This document shows positions 47,595 to 55,976 of a stretch of 64,000 nt of DNA, one piece after another; position 1 is the first letter of the stretch, and each line of letters opens with the position of its first letter. A program made the translations under genes and the position numbers. The notes below the pieces were generated by a model. The model was not told the origin of the DNA, ran no database searches, and saw only the letters and a program-made list of their open reading frames with translations. Source of the DNA: an uncultured Microcaldota archaeon (GTDB lineage Archaea > Micrarchaeota > Micrarchaeia > Burarchaeales > Fermentimicrarchaeaceae); NCBI GenBank assembly GCA_903884505.1, contig CAISET010000029.1:1-64000 (forward strand). Reading direction: 5' to 3'.

Positions 47595-50270
47595 TTATGG
47601 ATAATCTCTTAGCTTGTAGATTACCATGTAGCGCGCGCCGTTCGTGGCATTCCACTCGTAGGCCTTGTCGAAGCCGTCGAGCTCGCCGAGGACGAAGCCC
47701 TTGTAGAAGTTGGAGTCGTATATCTTCCCCTTGCGGTCATCCCAGCCGCTCACGTTGTCCTGCCAGATGGCGGGGTCCTTGAAGTACAGGACGGAGTAGA
47801 GCGCGTAGTCCTTCCCGTTGTAAGTGGTTTGCTGCGGGCTGGTGAGGACTCCCTTGTTCTGCCTGGTCAGGTTCTCCTCGTAGAACATCACGCCGTCGTT
47901 GCGCACGCAGTAGGTGTAGCCGAACGTCGACTGCGCGCGGAGGAGCCTGACCGACGGGTCGGAGGTCTGGCAGTAGTCGGAGAGCGCTGGCTGGAGCGGG
48001 ATGAAGACGTGCTCGAACTGGTGCTCGCGCTCGCAGGCGGAGGTGCCCATGCCGTTCTTCTCCGCATAGGTCTGGTTGGTCTGGTTGTTGTAGACGCAGG
48101 CGAGGAAGTCCAGCGCGCCCCACTTGCTCACGAGGTCGACGTCCATCATTACGTAGTGCGTCTTGTATTCGCGCATGAAGTTCGCGAGGTCCGCCTCTCC
48201 GGAATCGGGCGAGTCGCGGGGGCCGAAGACGTACTTGTCGGCCACCATGAGGTCCTTCGTCGAGTTTGCGTGCTCGTTGCGCGTGAGCGTGTCCCTCTCC
48301 CCGAAGAAGTTCGTCCAATGGCCGTAGTCCCACCAGGAAAGGATGCGGGTGTCGGGCTCCGTCTGGGTCCTTATCCACGTCATGGTGTCGAGCCAGTAGT
48401 CAGGTATCTTGTCGCAGTAGAGGTAGTAGGCGGTGTAGTGGCCGTCATTACCCATCTTCGTGCAGTTGGCCGCGCCCCCCGACCAGTACTGCTGGTTCAG
48501 GTTCACGGTTGCCAGCTCGATGACTGCGCCGTCGAGCGAGATGCCGCTGCTGGAGAGGGTCGGGGCGATGAATACGAGAAGGGAGAAGAAGAATGCCAGG
48601 GCCATTATGGCCCGGTGCGCGTTCCTCTTTTCCTCCTCGCTTTTGAACAGCTTCGGGATGAACTTCATGGCCTCGCCAAAGACTATCGCCACCGCGAGCA
48701 CGAGCATGAAGCCGAGCTGCAGCAGGTACTTGCTTATGCTCATCCCCACGTAGGAGACGGGGAATATCAGGAGGATGAGGAAGATTGCGAGCCTGGAGTC
48801 GCGGTAGACCCCGTAGGCAAGGCAGATGGCTGCGAGGAAGAGCGCAAGCTGTATGAGGCTGACTCCGAAGAGGGACATGCCGAGAACGTCGAACGCGCTC
48901 GATAGCTGGCCCTCGGTAGGCGCTTCCTCCGCCACGGTCATGTAGAGCGCCTCGGGATGGCCCGCGAAGCCGGCCGCGGAGTTTATGTAGCCGACCACCT
49001 TCGGGCCGAGGGGCGTGACGAGCAGCAGCATGAAGCCCACCACGATAATGCCGAGGAGCGCATACCACTTGTTTTCCGCGCTATCAACGTCCACGTTCAC
49101 GTTTATGTACCGGAGGACTGCTGCGGAAACCTTCACAATCAATTCTATTTGCCAGAGGGCTAGTGCGAAGAGGTACGGGCCCACGACCACGAGCAGGCGC
49201 TCGAGAATGGGGTAATTGGGCGCGTAAAACAGCATCGCCAGCGCAGTGAATATGATGAATACAACTATTATGCCGTTGAGTTCGATGAACTCGCGCAACT
49301 CCCTGCCGCGCAGGAAATCGAGGAGGGACTGCAAGCCGAGGTAGCCGCCGTAAACCAGGGAGAGGATGATGAAGTACTGCGAGCCGGAGATTATGGAGAT
49401 TGCGGCTATGCCCGCGAGGACCGCAAGCATCCTGTCGCGCCTGTGCACCACGAGAGCGTAGGCGGCTGCGAAGAAGAAGATGGCGTACAGCCCCCAGGGC
49501 TGAATCTCAGCCTCTCCCGCCGCGAACTTCTGGATGAAGTTGGGGAGGATTGCGCAGAACAGCGCCGCCATCAGGCCCATCGCGGTCCCGTATTCCTCCT
49601 TCATGAGGATGTAGGCGAGGAAGGCGAGGAGCGCGCCCACGAGCGGCGGGTAGACGTTCGCGACAACCGAGAGGAGGGAGGAGTCGTATGCGCCGCCCTG
49701 CGTGTAGATGGAATACCAGAAGGCCTCAAGGTAGTTGGTGATGGGCGCGAGGCGGTGCGTGCTGCCCTCCGGATACCATGCGGTCGTGTCATGCAGGGGG
49801 ATGTTGCCCTGCTGGAGCAGGTACTGCGTGCTGTAGATGTAGTAGTAGGGGTCGAACTCATAGAAGACTGGCGAGAGGCTCTGCATCCGCGCCCAGAATG
49901 CCCAGAGTATCATGAGCGAGACGAGAAGCAGGATTGCGAAGCGAATCTGCCCTTCGTGGCCCTCAAGGTCTATGCGGATGTTCCCGAACTCGGAGAAGAC
50001 GTTCTCCTTTATGGACCATGCGAGCCCCCCAAGGGAGACGAGGGCGATGACCGCGAGGGCGAGCGCGAAGGAATAGCCTATTCCGGCGAACGAAACGAGG
50101 AACATCAGGAAGGGCGGAATGACGGTGCCTATCACAAGGCCGAAGAGGATTTTCTCGAAGAGCCCCAGCTTCGAGCGCTTGAGCAGGGGCAGCGCGAGCA
50201 GCGTGCCCGGGACGAGCATGGAGAGCAGTATTGGTATTCCTGCAAGGATGAAAGTTAGTTCGCCTGCCAT
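47595..50270 (-). CDS. aglB: Oligosaccharyltransferase AglB
   Basis: AglB moves the lipid-linked glycan onto Asn of Asn-X-Ser/Thr in proteins outside the cell. The 891-residue protein has about 13 transmembrane segments up to residue 570 and a large outside domain. The first loop contains YEFDPYYYIY (metal-binding Asp), and the sequon-binding WWDYGHW lies at about residues 645-651, followed by ERDTLTRNEHAN. Its 3' end faces rmlA. Its presence agrees with the sugar-nucleotide and lipid-carrier genes around it. Confidence 0.96.
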   Translation of the reverse strand: MAGELTFILAGIPILLSMLVPGTLLALPLLKRSKLGLFEKILFGLVIGTVIPPFLMFLVSFAGIGYSFALALAVIALVSLGGLAWSIKENVFSEFGNIRIDLEGHEGQIRFAILLLVSLMILWAFWARMQSLSPVFYEFDPYYYIYSTQYLLQQGNIPLHDTTAWYPEGSTHRLAPITNYLEAFWYSIYTQGGAYDSSLLSVVANVYPPLVGALLAFLAYILMKEEYGTAMGLMAALFCAILPNFIQKFAAGEAEIQPWGLYAIFFFAAAYALVVHRRDRMLAVLAGIAAISIISGSQYFIILSLVYGGYLGLQSLLDFLRGRELREFIELNGIIVVFIIFTALAMLFYAPNYPILERLLVVVGPYLFALALWQIELIVKVSAAVLRYINVNVDVDSAENKWYALLGIIVVGFMLLLVTPLGPKVVGYINSAAGFAGHPEALYMTVAEEAPTEGQLSSAFDVLGMSLFGVSLIQLALFLAAICLAYGVYRDSRLAIFLILLIFPVSYVGMSISKYLLQLGFMLVLAVAIVFGEAMKFIPKLFKSEEEKRNAHRAIMALAFFFSLLVFIAPTLSSSGISLDGAVIELATVNLNQQYWSGGAANCTKMGNDGHYTAYYLYCDKIPDYWLDTMTWIRTQTEPDTRILSWWDYGHWTNFFGERDTLTRNEHANSTKDLMVADKYVFGPRDSPDSGEADLANFMREYKTHYVMMDVDLVSKWGALDFLACVYNNQTNQTYAEKNGMGTSACEREHQFEHVFIPLQPALSDYCQTSDPSVRLLRAQSTFGYTYCVRNDGVMFYEENLTRQNKGVLTSPQQTTYNGKDYALYSVLYFKDPAIWQDNVSGWDDRKGKIYDSNFYKGFVLGELDGFDKAYEWNATNGARYMVIYKLRDYP

Positions 50271-50340
50271 TTTTGCACCGAAGCCGAAGGAAACTATTTA
50301 TCGGTATGGATTTATATATGTTGAGAGGTTCGAGCGGATT

Positions 50341-51492
50341 ATGTTCGATGTCCATGTTGTTGGCGCAGGGCCCGCAGGCTCGGTGTGCGCGAGGGAGTGC
50401 GCAAAAAAGGGGCTGAAGGTGCTGCTTTCTGAAGAGCACAGGAGAATCGGGGAGCCCGTGCAGTGCTCGGGCCTGATTTCTAAGAACGGGCTCGATTCGC
50501 TGGGAGTTGACTATTCGAAGGCGGTAATGTGGGGCGTGCGCGGGGCGAGGCTCTTCTCGCCCGCGATGGAGGAGATGCGCGTAGGCAACGGGGGAATCAG
50601 GGCGCAGGTTGTGGACAGGGCGCGGCTTGATTCGCTGCTTGCGGAAAGCGCGGAGGAGGAAGGCGTGAAGGTTGAGCTGGGGAGGAGAGTTGGCAGGAAG
50701 GAGCTGAATGGCAGGTTCATTGTGGGCGCAGATGGGGCGGGCTCGTGCGTTGCGGATTGGTTCGGCTTCCCTGCAATTGGCGAGTACGTGATTGGGATGC
50801 AGGCTGATTTTGACGGCGCGGCGCTTGAGGAGCCCGATTGCATCGAGGCATATTTCTCGAACGAAAGATTTCCTGGGTTCTTCGGCTGGTGCATACCGCT
50901 CGGGAAGGATTCGGCGCGCGTGGGGCTTGGCGTTTATTGGAGAAGGGGCGAAAGGAGGGCTCCGGTGAGTGCGCTGTTCTCCAGGTTCCTCCGCAGCAGG
51001 AGGATTGCAGGAATCCTGGGTGGGGCTAAGAAGAGGTCGCAGCTCGCGGGCTGCATACCCATAAGGGCGAGGGAGAAGGCAGCCAAGGGAAATGTGCTGC
51101 TGGTCGGAGACGCGGCAGGCCAGGTCAAGGCCACGACCGGCGGAGGTGTGGTCTTCGGGACCGCGGCTGCGAAAGTCGCGGCGGGATGCATTGCAGGCGG
51201 AAAGGCAGCCGAATATGAGCGGATGTGGAGGGCGGAGCTGGGGGCGGACCTCGAGATGCACACGAGGCTGAGGGCGGCGCTCAACATGATGCCGGACTGG
51301 CAGATGTCGGGCGCGTTCTCGGCCGCGAAGCTCATGAGGATTGAGGAGTTCCTCAACAGGCACGGGGACATGGACAGCCCGAAGAAGATGCTTGGCGCGA
51401 TGAGCGGGGGCTTCGGGCCGCTGAAGGCGTTGGGCATGTCGCTGATTGGTGATACTAATATAATGGCGGCAAAGGGCAATAGTGGGCGTTGA
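50341..51492 (+). CDS. Geranylgeranyl-reductase-family flavoprotein
   Basis: The 383-residue FAD protein has the dinucleotide loop GAGPAGSVCAREC (residues 8-20), the GEPVQCSGLISK block, and GDAAGQVKATTGGGV near residue 250, the hallmarks of digeranylgeranylglycerophospholipid reductases. These saturate isoprenoid chains of membrane lipids or dolichol. The next gene makes the polyprenyl chain, so the polyprenol carrier may be its substrate. ATG at 50341 was chosen; longer reading overlaps aglB. A TATA-like TTTATATATG lies near 50310. Confidence 0.9.
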   Translation: MFDVHVVGAGPAGSVCARECAKKGLKVLLSEEHRRIGEPVQCSGLISKNGLDSLGVDYSKAVMWGVRGARLFSPAMEEMRVGNGGIRAQVVDRARLDSLLAESAEEEGVKVELGRRVGRKELNGRFIVGADGAGSCVADWFGFPAIGEYVIGMQADFDGAALEEPDCIEAYFSNERFPGFFGWCIPLGKDSARVGLGVYWRRGERRAPVSALFSRFLRSRRIAGILGGAKKRSQLAGCIPIRAREKAAKGNVLLVGDAAGQVKATTGGGVVFGTAAAKVAAGCIAGGKAAEYERMWRAELGADLEMHTRLRAALNMMPDWQMSGAFSAAKLMRIEEFLNRHGDMDSPKKMLGAMSGGFGPLKALGMSLIGDTNIMAAKGNSGR

Positions 51493-51493
51493 T

Positions 51494-52195
51494 ATGGCAG
51501 AGGCCGTTCCGAAGCACATAGTGATAATCCCCGACGGAAATCGCAGGTGGGCGAAGGCGCACCGTGTGCCCGAGCTCGAGGGCCATCGGGTAGGGATAGA
51601 CCTTCTCAGGAGCGTTGCCGACTGGTGCCGAGAGTTCGGGGTGAAGACGATAACCTTCTGGGGGTTCTCGCTTGAGAACTTCAGGCGCGGGGAGAAGGAG
51701 GTCAACCCCCTGATGCGGCTCTTCGAGCAGAAGTTCGAGGAGTTCAAGGACAAGAGCGAGGTGCACAAGAACAAAATCAGGGTGCGGTTCTTCGGCAGGA
51801 TTGACCTTCTTCCGCCAAAGCTGCAGAAGCAGCTGCGCGGGATTGAGAAGGAGACCGAAGGCTACACGGATTATAATGTGAACATACTGCTCGCTTATGG
51901 GGGGCGGCAGGAGCTCGTCGATGCCGCGAATGCCGCGATTGCCGATGCGAAGAATGGGAAGGTGGGGAAGCTGGACGAGGAGGCGCTTTCGCGCTATATG
52001 TACATGGCTGAGGTGCCCAACCCTGACCTTATAATCCGCACCTCGGGCGAGCAGAGGCTTTCCGGAATCCTCCCGTGGCACAGCGGGTACAGCGAGCTCT
52101 ACTTCTGCCCGAAGCTCTGGCCCGACTTCACGAAGGAGGATTTCAAGGCCGCGCTTGACGAGTTCGCGAGCAGGAAGAGAAGGTTCGGGAAGTGA
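51494..52195 (+). CDS. uppS: Polyprenyl diphosphate synthase (cis-prenyltransferase)
   Basis: The enzyme extends a prenyl diphosphate with isopentenyl diphosphate in cis to make the long carrier lipid for glycans. The 233-residue protein has IIPDGNRRWA (residues 11-20, catalytic Asp14), TFWGFSLENF, and the C-terminal IRTSGEQRLSG...YSELYF. ATG at 51494 overlaps the reductase stop region. A structured repeat begins just after its stop codon. Confidence 0.95.
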   Translation: MAEAVPKHIVIIPDGNRRWAKAHRVPELEGHRVGIDLLRSVADWCREFGVKTITFWGFSLENFRRGEKEVNPLMRLFEQKFEEFKDKSEVHKNKIRVRFFGRIDLLPPKLQKQLRGIEKETEGYTDYNVNILLAYGGRQELVDAANAAIADAKNGKVGKLDEEALSRYMYMAEVPNPDLIIRTSGEQRLSGILPWHSGYSELYFCPKLWPDFTKEDFKAALDEFASRKRRFGK

Positions 52196-52581
52196 TTGAC
52201 GTGGGGAGGGTCAGGAGGAGCCTGAAACTGGGGAGGGGCGGAGCCCCTCCGCGGTTCGGGAAGCTTGGGGATTTTGAGGCTGCGGATTCGGTCTTCGCGA
52301 GGGCGAGGGGGCTCATGTTCCGCAGGAGCGTCAAGAGGCCCCTGCTCTTCACCTTCCAGAGGGAGTCGCAGGCCGAGTGCGCGATACATGCCTTCTTCGT
52401 GTTCTTCCCGTTCGATGCCGTTTACCTTGACGGCAAAAAGAGGGTGGTGGATGTCTACCATGCGATAAGGCCCTTCACACCGCTTATCGTCCCGAAGAAG
52501 AGGGCGAAATACCTGGTCGAGGCGCCAGCCGGCTGGGCGAAAAAGAGGCGGATAAGGGCTGGCGATAGGTTGTACTTTTAA
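52192..52581 (+). CDS. DUF192 family protein
   Basis: The C-terminal 100 residues match the DUF192 (UPF0127) family, with ARGLMFRRSV, ECAIHAFFVFFPFDAVYLDGKKRVVDVY and YLVEAPAGWA. The family function is unknown. The total length is 129 residues, but the first 25 are encoded by the hairpin repeat, so a later start within 52260-52290 is possible. It overlaps the uppS stop by four bases. Confidence 0.82.
   Translation: MIDVGRVRRSLKLGRGGAPPRFGKLGDFEAADSVFARARGLMFRRSVKRPLLFTFQRESQAECAIHAFFVFFPFDAVYLDGKKRVVDVYHAIRPFTPLIVPKKRAKYLVEAPAGWAKKRRIRAGDRLYF
52211..52263 (+). repeat. Stop-codon-adjacent hairpin repeat, copy 1
   Basis: TCAGGAGGAGCCTGAAACTG followed by GGGGCGGAGCCCC and TCCGCGGTTCGGGAAG forms two hairpins (CAGG/CCTG and GGGGC/GCCCC). 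A close copy lies at 57462-57514. Here GGTTCGGGAAG occurs both at the uppS end (52182-52192) and at the repeat end (52253-52263), 71 bp apart. The repeat falls inside the reading frame of the DUF192 gene. Confidence 0.7.
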
Positions 52582-52639: not shown

Positions 52640-54421
52640 TTGCGCCTGCATCTTGACAGGTCAGTCTGCTCTGCGTGCGACTTGTGCATCGGCAATTGCC
52701 CGAAGGCGCCTAGCTCGCGCGAGCTCATGCGCTGTAGGCACTGCCCGCCCGCCACCGCGAAGTGCAGGAGGGCGTGCCCGAAGGGCGCGATACATGAGGT
52801 CGCGAAGGGGCTGCTCTCGATTAATGAGAAGTGCGACGGCTGCGGGGCGTGCGCGAAGGCCTGCCCGCACGGCGCAATCCTCATGGAAGGGAAACGGGCC
52901 GAGAAGTGCGACCTCTGCCTCGGGCACCCGATGTGCGTCTCCGCCTGCCCGGATGGCGCGCTGCACCTTTCGGCAGACCGGGAGAACATGCTCGGCTGGC
53001 GGGTCCTGAAGTGCGCGAAATGCGTCGAGGACGAGTATGCCGTTGACAGGCTGCCCGAGCTGAGCGACGAGGAGGAGGGCCTCGTCGTGGAGGTGTGCGA
53101 GGATTACAAGGAGGCCTCGAAGAGCGAGGATGTCGGGGAGGAGTTGGAGGAGGCGAAGGCAAAGATAGGGGAGCTGATTGCCGGGAAGTGCGCAAGGGAC
53201 GGGATAAGGCTGGATGCCGAGCAGGCGCGCTACCTCGCCGACGCGGCCTGCATGAGCATAAGGGGGTTCGGCGTCCTCGACCTCCTCATCGGGGAGAAGG
53301 AGTTCGAGGAGATTGCGGTCATCGGCGTGGGGAAGCCCATCTATGCGTACCGCAGGGGGAAGGGATGGCTGAGAACCAACTGCCTTTTCACCAGGGAGGA
53401 GACGGTAATCGATGTGATAAACAAGATGGCGAGACCGCTCGGGAGGAGGGTGACGCTGCAGCAGCCGAGGCTGAACGCGGTGCTGCCCGATGGCAGCAGG
53501 CTGCACGCATCCATTCCCCCAATCTCGGGCGTTGAGATGACGATAAGGAAGTTCAGGGAAAGCCCGATAGCGGTTTCGGATTTGGTGAACAACCGCACCT
53601 ACTCCGCGGAATCGCTCGCGTTTTTGTGGCTGGCCGTGCAGTGCGACGTCTCGGTCCTCGTTGCCGGGAATACGGCGAGCGGGAAGACCTCTACGATGAA
53701 CGCGCTGTTCTCCTTCGTGCCGCTCGGCGAGCGCGTGCTCGTGACCGAGGAGACCCCGGAAATCAACATACCGCACGAGCACGTCTGCAAGCTGCTCGCG
53801 AACCAGGAGCTTGGGATAAGGATGAGCGAGCTGGTCGCGGATTCGCTGAGGATGAGGCCGGACCGCGTAATCGTCGGAGAAGTGAGAACGCAGGAGGAGG
53901 TGCACGCTTTGTTCGAGACAATCCTGAGCGGGCAGGCAAGGGGGAGCTTCGCCACATTCCACGCGCAGAGCGCGAGGGAGGCGCTCGCGCGGCTGTGCTC
54001 GCACGGGATATTGCCGGTCGATTTGCAGTCCCTCGACCTGATAATCGTGCAGAGGAGGATGGCGCGCTTCCACGGCGGGACCGGGAGGGAGGTGCGCAGG
54101 TGCATGGAGATTTGCGAGCTGGAGGCAGTTGGCGGCGGGGTGCCCATGCCGGTTCGCTCATCGCAGGTCCTTTCCGAGCGAGACGGCATGCCGGAGCTTG
54201 TGCCGATTTTCTCCTATGATTACGGGAAGGATGCGCTTGTTGGAAAGGGAACCGGGAAGCGGCTGTCTGAAAAGATAAGGAGAAGCTTCGGCTTCTCGCA
54301 GGAGGAGCTGGAAAAGGAGCTCGCGGAGAGGAGCGCATTCATCTCGAAAATTTCCGAGAGGAAGACCGGGTTCTTTGAGAGCGTGAATGCGCTGAGCGGG
54401 TATTCCGGCAAAAGAAGATGA
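52640..54421 (+). CDS. Four-cluster ferredoxin fused to a type II/IV secretion ATPase
   Basis: The 593-residue protein starts at TTG 52640 after GGTGG. Residues 10-103 hold four CxxC...CxxxCP groups (Cys 10/13/16/20, 32/35/42/46, 65/68/71/75, 90/93/99/103), as in HycB-type 4Fe-4S ferredoxins, plus CxxC at 125-128. Residues about 165-520 are a PilT/TadA/FlaI-type ATPase: Walker A GNTASGKT (343-350), acidic TEETPE (369-374), Walker B PDRVIVGEVR (407-416), His box FATFHAQS (437-444). The next gene is the membrane partner, so it likely powers a pilus or secretion system, possibly redox-controlled. Codon use and frame are continuous; no frameshift is evident. Confidence 0.9.
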   Translation: MRLHLDRSVCSACDLCIGNCPKAPSSRELMRCRHCPPATAKCRRACPKGAIHEVAKGLLSINEKCDGCGACAKACPHGAILMEGKRAEKCDLCLGHPMCVSACPDGALHLSADRENMLGWRVLKCAKCVEDEYAVDRLPELSDEEEGLVVEVCEDYKEASKSEDVGEELEEAKAKIGELIAGKCARDGIRLDAEQARYLADAACMSIRGFGVLDLLIGEKEFEEIAVIGVGKPIYAYRRGKGWLRTNCLFTREETVIDVINKMARPLGRRVTLQQPRLNAVLPDGSRLHASIPPISGVEMTIRKFRESPIAVSDLVNNRTYSAESLAFLWLAVQCDVSVLVAGNTASGKTSTMNALFSFVPLGERVLVTEETPEINIPHEHVCKLLANQELGIRMSELVADSLRMRPDRVIVGEVRTQEEVHALFETILSGQARGSFATFHAQSAREALARLCSHGILPVDLQSLDLIIVQRRMARFHGGTGREVRRCMEICELEAVGGGVPMPVRSSQVLSERDGMPELVPIFSYDYGKDALVGKGTGKRLSEKIRRSFGFSQEELEKELAERSAFISKISERKTGFFESVNALSGYSGKRR

Positions 54422-54425
54422 GAAA

Positions 54426-55976
54426 ATGTGGGAGTTTGTGGCGATTGCCGTTGCGGCTGCCGTTGCGGCCTACGCCGCCCTTTCCTACTACCCGAAATTC
54501 ATGAAGGGAAAGAGAGCCGGCGAGATAGAGGCCGAGCTGCCTACAATGCTGCGCAGCATCGGGGTCGAGCTGAACATGAATACGCCTTTCGAGCATGCGC
54601 TGAGGCACGCGGCGAAGGCGGGCGGCGGGCCGCTTTCCTCCGAGTTTGAGGCGCTCGTGCGGGAGGTGGAGGCCGGCAGCAGCATACAGGATGCGCTGAA
54701 GTCGCTTGCGGGAAGAGTGGATTCGATTATGGTGAAGAGGGCGTGCGCGCAGCTCGTGGCCTGCTATGAGCATGGGGAGAAGGGGGACGGGCTGAAGAGG
54801 CTTGCGGGCGAGATGATGCAGGTGCAGAAGGCGAAGGCGAGGGAGTTCGCCGCGCGCATGCAGATGCTCGGGCTGGTCTTCATCGCGGTCTCCTGCATCC
54901 TTCCGTCGCTTTTCCTTGCGCTCGTAGTGGTGGGCTCCGCGTTCATGGGCCCGCTCTTCTCGCCCTTCCAGGTCTGGCTTGCGTTCCTCGCGGTTTTTCC
55001 GCTGGTTGATGCGGCCCTCATCGCGGTCATGGTTGCGCTTCTGCCCGCCCACCTGAAGACGGGGAATGGCGCGGGAATGTTCTCGGAAAGGGAGCTGAGG
55101 CACATAAATGCGCTGCTCAGGGCGAAGGGGATGAATTTTGAGGTGAAGGCTGCCGCAGTGCCCGCGTTCCTTGTTTCGTCCGCGGTTTCTGCAACCGCAT
55201 ATTTCACGCTCGATTATTATGGCATCACCGGCGCCCCCGCTTATGCAACCACATTTTTCCTATTCGCCTCCCCGCTGCTCGCCTATTTCTACCTTTCGCA
55301 CCTCGTGCGGCAGAGGAGCGCGAAGATTGAGAGGTTCCTCCCAGATGCGCTCTTCCAGGCGGCGTCCCTGCAGAGGGGCACGGGCTTCGAGAGGCTCATC
55401 GCTTCGGTCGCGCGCTCCGGGTACGGGCCGCTCAGCGAGGAATTTGCAATCGTCCAGAGGCAGGTGCGCGCAGGCGTTGGAGTTGTCCCCGCGATGAAGG
55501 CGGTTGCGCAGCGCGCCGACTCCGTGCTCCTTGAGCGGGCCGTTTCGCTTCTGGTGCAGGCGTACCATACCGGCGCGGAGATGAGCGGCGCGATGAGGGA
55601 GACCGCGGAGGATATTTTTGAGGTGTTCTCGGCGCTGCTGGAGAGGAGGTCCGCGCTCGCGATGCAGAAATACACGCTGCTTTTCGGCGCATTGCTCGTT
55701 CCGGTAATCCTGGGGCTCATCGTGAATGTCGTTTCGGGCCTTGACCTTTCCGCACTCGAGGAGATTTCGAAGGTTAGCAACGAGGAGCGGGTTGCGCTGC
55801 TTTCCGCCGGAATCGGGGCGGGCCAGGCTTACCTCGTGGCATTCGCGCTGCTCTCCTCCGTCCTCATTGCGCAGCAGGACGGGGACGGGAGGAAGGCGGT
55901 CCTTTACTTCACGGCCCTTGCTCCCCTTTCGCTCGCGCTGTTCGCCGCCGCAAGGGCATTGGGGCTCTTCTCGTAG
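54426..55976 (+). CDS. TadC/FlaJ-type membrane assembly protein with two T2SSF units
   Basis: The 516-residue polytopic protein is the inner-membrane platform of type IV pilus-like machines. It has two T2SSF-like halves: LPTMLRSIGVELNMNTPFEHAL...(residues 37-135) and FLPDALFQAASLQRGTGFERLI (about 300-400). Each is followed by a hydrophobic pair (about 145-205 and 415-450; further helices at 455-515). It starts five bases after the ATPase stop, so both form one operon. No pilin or prepilin peptidase is in the window. Confidence 0.88.
   Translation: MWEFVAIAVAAAVAAYAALSYYPKFMKGKRAGEIEAELPTMLRSIGVELNMNTPFEHALRHAAKAGGGPLSSEFEALVREVEAGSSIQDALKSLAGRVDSIMVKRACAQLVACYEHGEKGDGLKRLAGEMMQVQKAKAREFAARMQMLGLVFIAVSCILPSLFLALVVVGSAFMGPLFSPFQVWLAFLAVFPLVDAALIAVMVALLPAHLKTGNGAGMFSERELRHINALLRAKGMNFEVKAAAVPAFLVSSAVSATAYFTLDYYGITGAPAYATTFFLFASPLLAYFYLSHLVRQRSAKIERFLPDALFQAASLQRGTGFERLIASVARSGYGPLSEEFAIVQRQVRAGVGVVPAMKAVAQRADSVLLERAVSLLVQAYHTGAEMSGAMRETAEDIFEVFSALLERRSALAMQKYTLLFGALLVPVILGLIVNVVSGLDLSALEEISKVSNEERVALLSAGIGAGQAYLVAFALLSSVLIAQQDGDGRKAVLYFTALAPLSLALFAAARALGLFS

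Follow-up and report, generated by a model that had tools for sequence, protein, structure and literature searches.

A ferredoxin domain with four cluster motifs joined to a type IV filament ATPase in Micrarchaeota

A fused gene and its neighbours

The window analysed here, a 64,000-nucleotide stretch from an uncultured Micrarchaeota genome, carries a single open frame in which a ferredoxin domain precedes a secretion-type ATPase. The first-pass annotation had placed this fusion at 52640-54421 and had described four 4Fe-4S motifs followed by a complete ATPase with intact Walker and His boxes. These points hold: Pfam recognises both domains within the one frame, 16 cysteines fall into four motifs at residues 10-20, 32-46, 65-75 and 90-103, and the Walker A, Asp-box, Walker B and His-box regions are all found. 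The TTG start directly abuts an in-frame TAG and opens 593 codons, and it is supported by the proteins of relatives, which start at the corresponding residue. The locus is laid out as follows.

50119-51492: geranylgeranyl-reductase (GGR)-family flavoprotein, conserved neighbour (synteny)
51482..52195, + strand: polyprenyl diphosphate synthase (UppS family), conserved neighbour (Pfam and synteny)
52192..52581, + strand: DUF192 protein, conserved upstream neighbour (Pfam and synteny)
52640..54421, + strand: ferredoxin-ATPase fusion gene, 593 aa, TTG start (open frame and Pfam; fusion kept in relatives)
52640..52975, + strand: N-terminal polyferredoxin domain, about residues 1-112 (Pfam Fer4/Fer4_7; 16 Cys in four motifs; DmsB/HycB-like, with similarity to TIGR02951 below its cut-off)
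52976..53140, + strand: junction and linker, about residues 113-167 (orthologues without the ferredoxin align from about residue 113)
53141..54140, + strand: FlaI/GspE2/CpaF-type N-terminal domain (NTD) and RecA-like T2SSE ATPase core, about residues 168-500 (PF00437; AlphaFold model with Foldseek matches 2oap/4ii7/8rjf)
53666-53692, + strand: Walker A, within the T2SSE core
54141..54418, + strand: C-terminal tail of strands and helices (predicted model)
54426..55976, + strand: T2SSF/FlaJ-like membrane platform protein with two T2SSF domains (PF00482, E=2.7e-24), starting 4 bases past the ATPase stop

The ferredoxin domain is matched in its first 110 residues by Fer4 (PF00037; E=6.5e-8, 32.5 bits against a cut-off of 21.1) and Fer4_7 (PF12838; 29.5 bits against 27). 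Its motifs read C10-x2-C13-x2-C16-x3-C20 (I), C32-x2-C35-x6-C42-x3-C46 (II), C65-x2-C68-x2-C71-x3-C75 (III) and C90-x2-C93-x5-C99-x3-C103 (IV). All 16 cysteines are invariant in an alignment of ten full-length ferredoxin domains from two ATPase clades, which excludes a chance origin of the motifs, and the domain is likely to hold four 4Fe-4S clusters. AlphaFold models the ferredoxin part with low confidence (pLDDT about 28 in the full model, and 45 for the domain folded in isolation from 4 sequences). Two of the related fusions described below (L063 of genome G011 and L064 of G008) have a shorter motif III, C-x2-C-x2-C-x1-C, in which the four cysteines are retained.

A profile built from the ten domains gave 13 strong matches (135-155 bits) across 301 Micrarchaeota genomes, all 13 of them ATPase fusions, and the next best match scored 48 bits; since all ten source domains are among the 13, the high scores are expected, and the telling point is the gap to the rest of the phylum. 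The nearest matches outside it, in 398 genomes of the phylum Nitrososphaerota/Thermoproteota, were mostly short DmsB/HycB-type subunits of up to 85 bits among the matches listed, and no ATPase fusion was recognised among the inspected frames of those matches. Ferredoxin-bearing Thermoproteota frames of 730-770 aa were considered as candidate fusions; those inspected read as alpha subunits of the indolepyruvate:ferredoxin oxidoreductase type, not ATPases. Another candidate, a Thermoproteota frame of 418 aa, is a ferredoxin-plus-membrane protein without an ATPase.

In the ATPase half, T2SSE (PF00437) covers residues 250-472 at E=3.1e-32 (112 bits against a cut-off of 24.9), the boxes are GNTASGKTS (Walker A), EETPEI (Asp-box region), VIVGEVR (Walker B) and ATFHAQ (His box), and K349, E414, T439 and H441 are invariant in nine fusions of both clades. 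By sequence the closest structures include archaeal GspE (2oap), CpaF and FlaI, all strong matches, and they are echoed by the AlphaFold model made from the relatives' alignment (pLDDT mostly 80-95), for which Foldseek returns archaeal GspE 2oap (E=2e-33), FlaI 4ii7/4ihq and TadA/CpaF 8rjf. Neither the FlaI equivalog NF058587 of NCBIfam (195 bits against a cut-off of 550) nor TadA TIGR03819 (156 against 373) is reached. Around the gene there is no archaellum operon, its neighbours being UppS, DUF192, T2SSF and PAC2. Type IV pilus ATPases are cytosolic motors, and the best explanation of the window protein is that it drives assembly in an archaeal type IV filament system as a cytoplasmic ATPase of the FlaI/GspE2/CpaF class, partnered with the adjacent T2SSF platform.

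The T2SSF gene stays beside the ATPase in most relatives inspected. In G011 (L063:6002-7864) the fused ATPase is followed by a tryptophan-synthase-like gene, not T2SSF, so that motor and platform are separated there. Further upstream in the window, at 47595-51492, an AglB/STT3-like oligosaccharyltransferase and the GGR-family flavoprotein adjoin the ATPase locus, an arrangement seen in several families. No pilin gene lies beside the window ATPase; class-III-type pilins adjoin two paralogues elsewhere in the genome instead.

Recurrence, loss and history of the fusion

The same domain order occurs in several other Micrarchaeota genomes. In the clade of the window gene (clade A), full fusions are present in G003 (67% identity), G013 (52%), G011 (49-50%) and G008 (47-49%), all from the same family or order as the window genome. 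The window genome itself carries two more fusions, on contigs C36 (L071:6439-8715, 759 aa) and C33 (L072:6170-8347, 726 aa), which belong to a second, distinct ATPase clade (B). Could the fused frame be a frameshift error joining two genes, as the first-pass annotation had allowed? Such an artefact of assembly has practically no chance of being right, being refuted by the recurrence of fused frames without internal stops in several independent genomes, by three separate fusions in one genome, and by GC3 values that stay level over the ferredoxin/ATPase junction (0.85, 0.90, 0.85).

The clade B fusions both lie in pilus-type loci. Each ATPase is followed by a T2SSF gene and by another membrane protein, TadC-like, with class-III-type pilin signals downstream: QSSIEF at C36 (L071), and QSAIEV and QVSLEY at C33 (L072), of which the QSAIEV gene matches Pfam Class_IIIsignal at E=9e-4, under its cut-off. 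Clade B fusions are also found in G001, G004, G005 and G006 (two copies), with a partial one at a contig end in G003, while the orthologues of G012, G014 and G015 are without the ferredoxin domain. At least one fusion, full or reduced, is present in seven of the eight genomes of the window's family; none was found in the eighth, G007.

Several neighbours of the clade B loci are worth recording in their own right. Beside the C33 locus, on the opposite strand, lie a VirB4/TraC-like protein, PrgI-like at its N-terminus, and neighbouring envelope genes (L072:431-3100 and L072:3112-4053), which suggest a conjugation-type element next to the pilus locus. Between the membrane and pilin genes of C33 is a 535 aa protein (L072:10445-12049) whose resemblance to the DNA primase large subunit (PF04104) is marginal, at 21.7 bits where the cut-off is 22.4. 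In genus g2, the ferredoxin-ATPase/T2SSF pair is followed by AMMECR1 and by a protein with a PAS_10 domain, possibly a sensory neighbour (L135:9176-10167 in G006, L136:9009-9943 in G005).

The domain is also missing or shortened in many relatives. Ferredoxin-less orthologues in G009 (L068), G015 (L069), G026 (L070) and G014 (L138) begin at the junction, and the gene order AglB/STT3, GGR-family, UppS, DUF192, ATPase, T2SSF, PAC2 is wholly or partly retained around them, L138 being too short to judge. Relatives with two separate genes, the outcome that would have spoken against a fusion, did not turn up: no ferredoxin gene with a CxxCxxCxxxC motif stands beside the ferredoxin-less ATPase in the six loci checked (L068, L069, L070, L132, L133, L138), and the single pattern match, in L069, is far downstream in a stop-broken frame. 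The many syntenic orthologues without the domain indicate that the basic motor can do without it. Shortened versions have two or three motifs, and the reduced ferredoxin parts of the fusions in G002, G055 and G285 retain motifs I and IV. In DmsB-type folds these two motifs form one two-cluster pair, which suggests that a cluster-binding unit is still retained; the reduced forms could thus still be two-cluster ferredoxins.

Purifying selection acts on both halves of the fusion. Between the window gene and that of G003, pN is 0.229 and pS 0.54 in the ferredoxin part, and 0.168 and 0.508 in the ATPase. Clade B pairs give pN 0.07 against pS 0.67-0.77 in the ferredoxin part, and the G004/G005 pair 0.027 against 0.118.

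A tree of 78 ATPase domains keeps clades A and B apart, and at least 4-5 changes of the label "full ferredoxin" have to be placed on it. The domain was thus acquired repeatedly, moved between paralogues, or was lost many times. A tree of the ferredoxin domains addresses whether those of clades A and B have a common origin (p-AU 0.485), from sequences too short to decide. The C-x2-C-x6-C spacing of motif II, common to both clades, favours a single origin of the module.

Possible redox control and its alternatives

Why attach a four-cluster ferredoxin to a filament motor? Our leading reading, which we judge about evenly balanced between right and wrong, is that the module places the motor under redox- or Fe-S-responsive control, with gating of filament assembly as the presumed outcome. 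The clusters would pass electrons to and from the cytosolic pool of ferredoxins and oxidoreductases, or suffer oxidant damage; their state would change how the N-terminal domain packs, or how it docks with the platform or with a partner; and filament assembly would then proceed only under the right redox condition. From the N-terminal side, a four-cluster module would be in a good position to signal redox state to the ATPase ring. The window genome has a pyruvate:ferredoxin oxidoreductase (POR) gene with an adjoining delta-type ferredoxin (C30), and hence a ferredoxin pool. It has few other ferredoxins and no match to the molybdopterin-family oxidoreductases (PF00384), so the fused domain stands without the usual DmsB partner; the ferredoxin pool is a sensible electron source. 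It counts against redox control that no redox-partner gene is fixed beside all fusion copies, and that so many syntenic orthologues are without the domain.

Alternatively, the Fe-S domain might be structural or serve in docking, tying the motor to the membrane or a redox partner or rigidifying the N-terminal ring, with its redox state irrelevant; we regard this as possible but doubtful. Structural Fe-S clusters occur in some helicases and primases, and the two- and three-motif versions would be in keeping with such a role. So would the position of the domain, at the N-terminus, which in FlaI-like ATPases is a variable region and the site of NTD-NTD interactions (PMC6011876). On the other hand, the invariance of the 16 ligands of four clusters in ten domains is more than a simple scaffold usually requires, and the domain resembles electron-transfer subunits.

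Could the domain instead be a remnant in decay, an ancestral ferredoxin under loss with little present function? The patchy distribution, with its repeated label changes on the ATPase tree, and the reduced forms in three genomes would fit, and yet we think it improbable: pN lies well under pS across the ferredoxin domain in four pairs, even in G004/G005, three intact copies coexist in one genome, and full or reduced fusions persist across nearly the whole family.

Very improbable, too, is an electron relay, whether to the membrane or filament, as in extracellular electron transfer, or to an enzyme encoded nearby, for instance the GGR-family flavoprotein. The similarity to DmsB/HycB-type subunits and the conservation of the GGR-family gene as a neighbour speak for it, as do papers on archaeal GGRs, which discuss ferredoxin in the parts of their text available to us. 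However, ferredoxin-less orthologues have the same neighbours, and no recognised GGR gene stands beside the clade B fusions in the stretches examined. Nor was any protein with at least two CxxCH heme motifs found in the window or in five clade B loci. The first-pass suggestion that the fusion might feed electrons to a surface appendage accordingly finds no support, given the want of a multi-heme protein, the want of a pilin beside the clade A ATPase and the cytosolic place of the motor.

Redox control of the motor, if correct, may have a wider bearing. Known control of type IV filament motors runs through second messengers or accessory proteins, whereas a built-in polyferredoxin would link metabolism directly to filament assembly. 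More speculatively, and with distinctly less confidence than in the redox reading of the fused protein, we propose that several type IV filament motors of one Micrarchaeota lineage are under direct redox control through a four-cluster module carried by two ATPase clades. Electron supply would then switch filament extension; cells might, for example, attach to a host or detach from it depending on the available reducing power. The archaea concerned are symbiotic, and their host contacts are poorly understood. Natural orthologues with and without the ferredoxin domain at the same genomic place offer a clean comparison for the role of the clusters.

Relation to known motors and ferredoxins

Each half of the protein has close counterparts. 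The archaellum ATPase FlaI/ArlI and archaeal GspE (4ii7, 4ihq, 2oap) share with it the NTD and RecA-like core, the Walker and His boxes and a T2SSF/FlaJ gene directly downstream, but their solved structures are without an Fe-S domain. The TadA/CpaF pilus ATPases (8rjf, 8rkd, 9e24) likewise have the superfamily and fold in common with the window ATPase and lack a ferredoxin domain. The four-cluster subunits of the DmsB/HycB/NrfC/HydN type have four Cys motifs in the same order, including a fourth motif of the form KCDxC...CxxxCP that is also present in the window domain. By contrast, motif II is C-x2-C-x4-C-x3-C in the DmsB/HycB-type relatives aligned and C-x2-C-x6-C-x3-C in the fused domains, the gap between motifs I and II is shorter in the fused domains, and the DmsB equivalog TIGR02951 is not reached by the window domain (39 bits against a cut-off of 214). 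Whereas DmsB/HycB-type subunits are fused to or lie beside a redox enzyme, the fused domains sit on a motor ATPase.

The zinc site of bacterial GspE/EpsE is a single tetracysteine at another position, not four Fe-S clusters. GspE/EpsE is nevertheless a secretion ATPase with an added zinc-binding, that is metal-binding, domain (available portion of PMC5061722). The census of archaeal type IV pili (Makarova et al. 2016, PMC4858521) covers archaeal secretion ATPases and T2SSF loci, and the terms "Fe-S", "iron-sulfur", "redox" and "ferredoxin" are absent from its main text. No such fusion is described in the open-access literature searched. We rate the window protein as a member of a known motor family that carries a previously unreported sensory or docking module.
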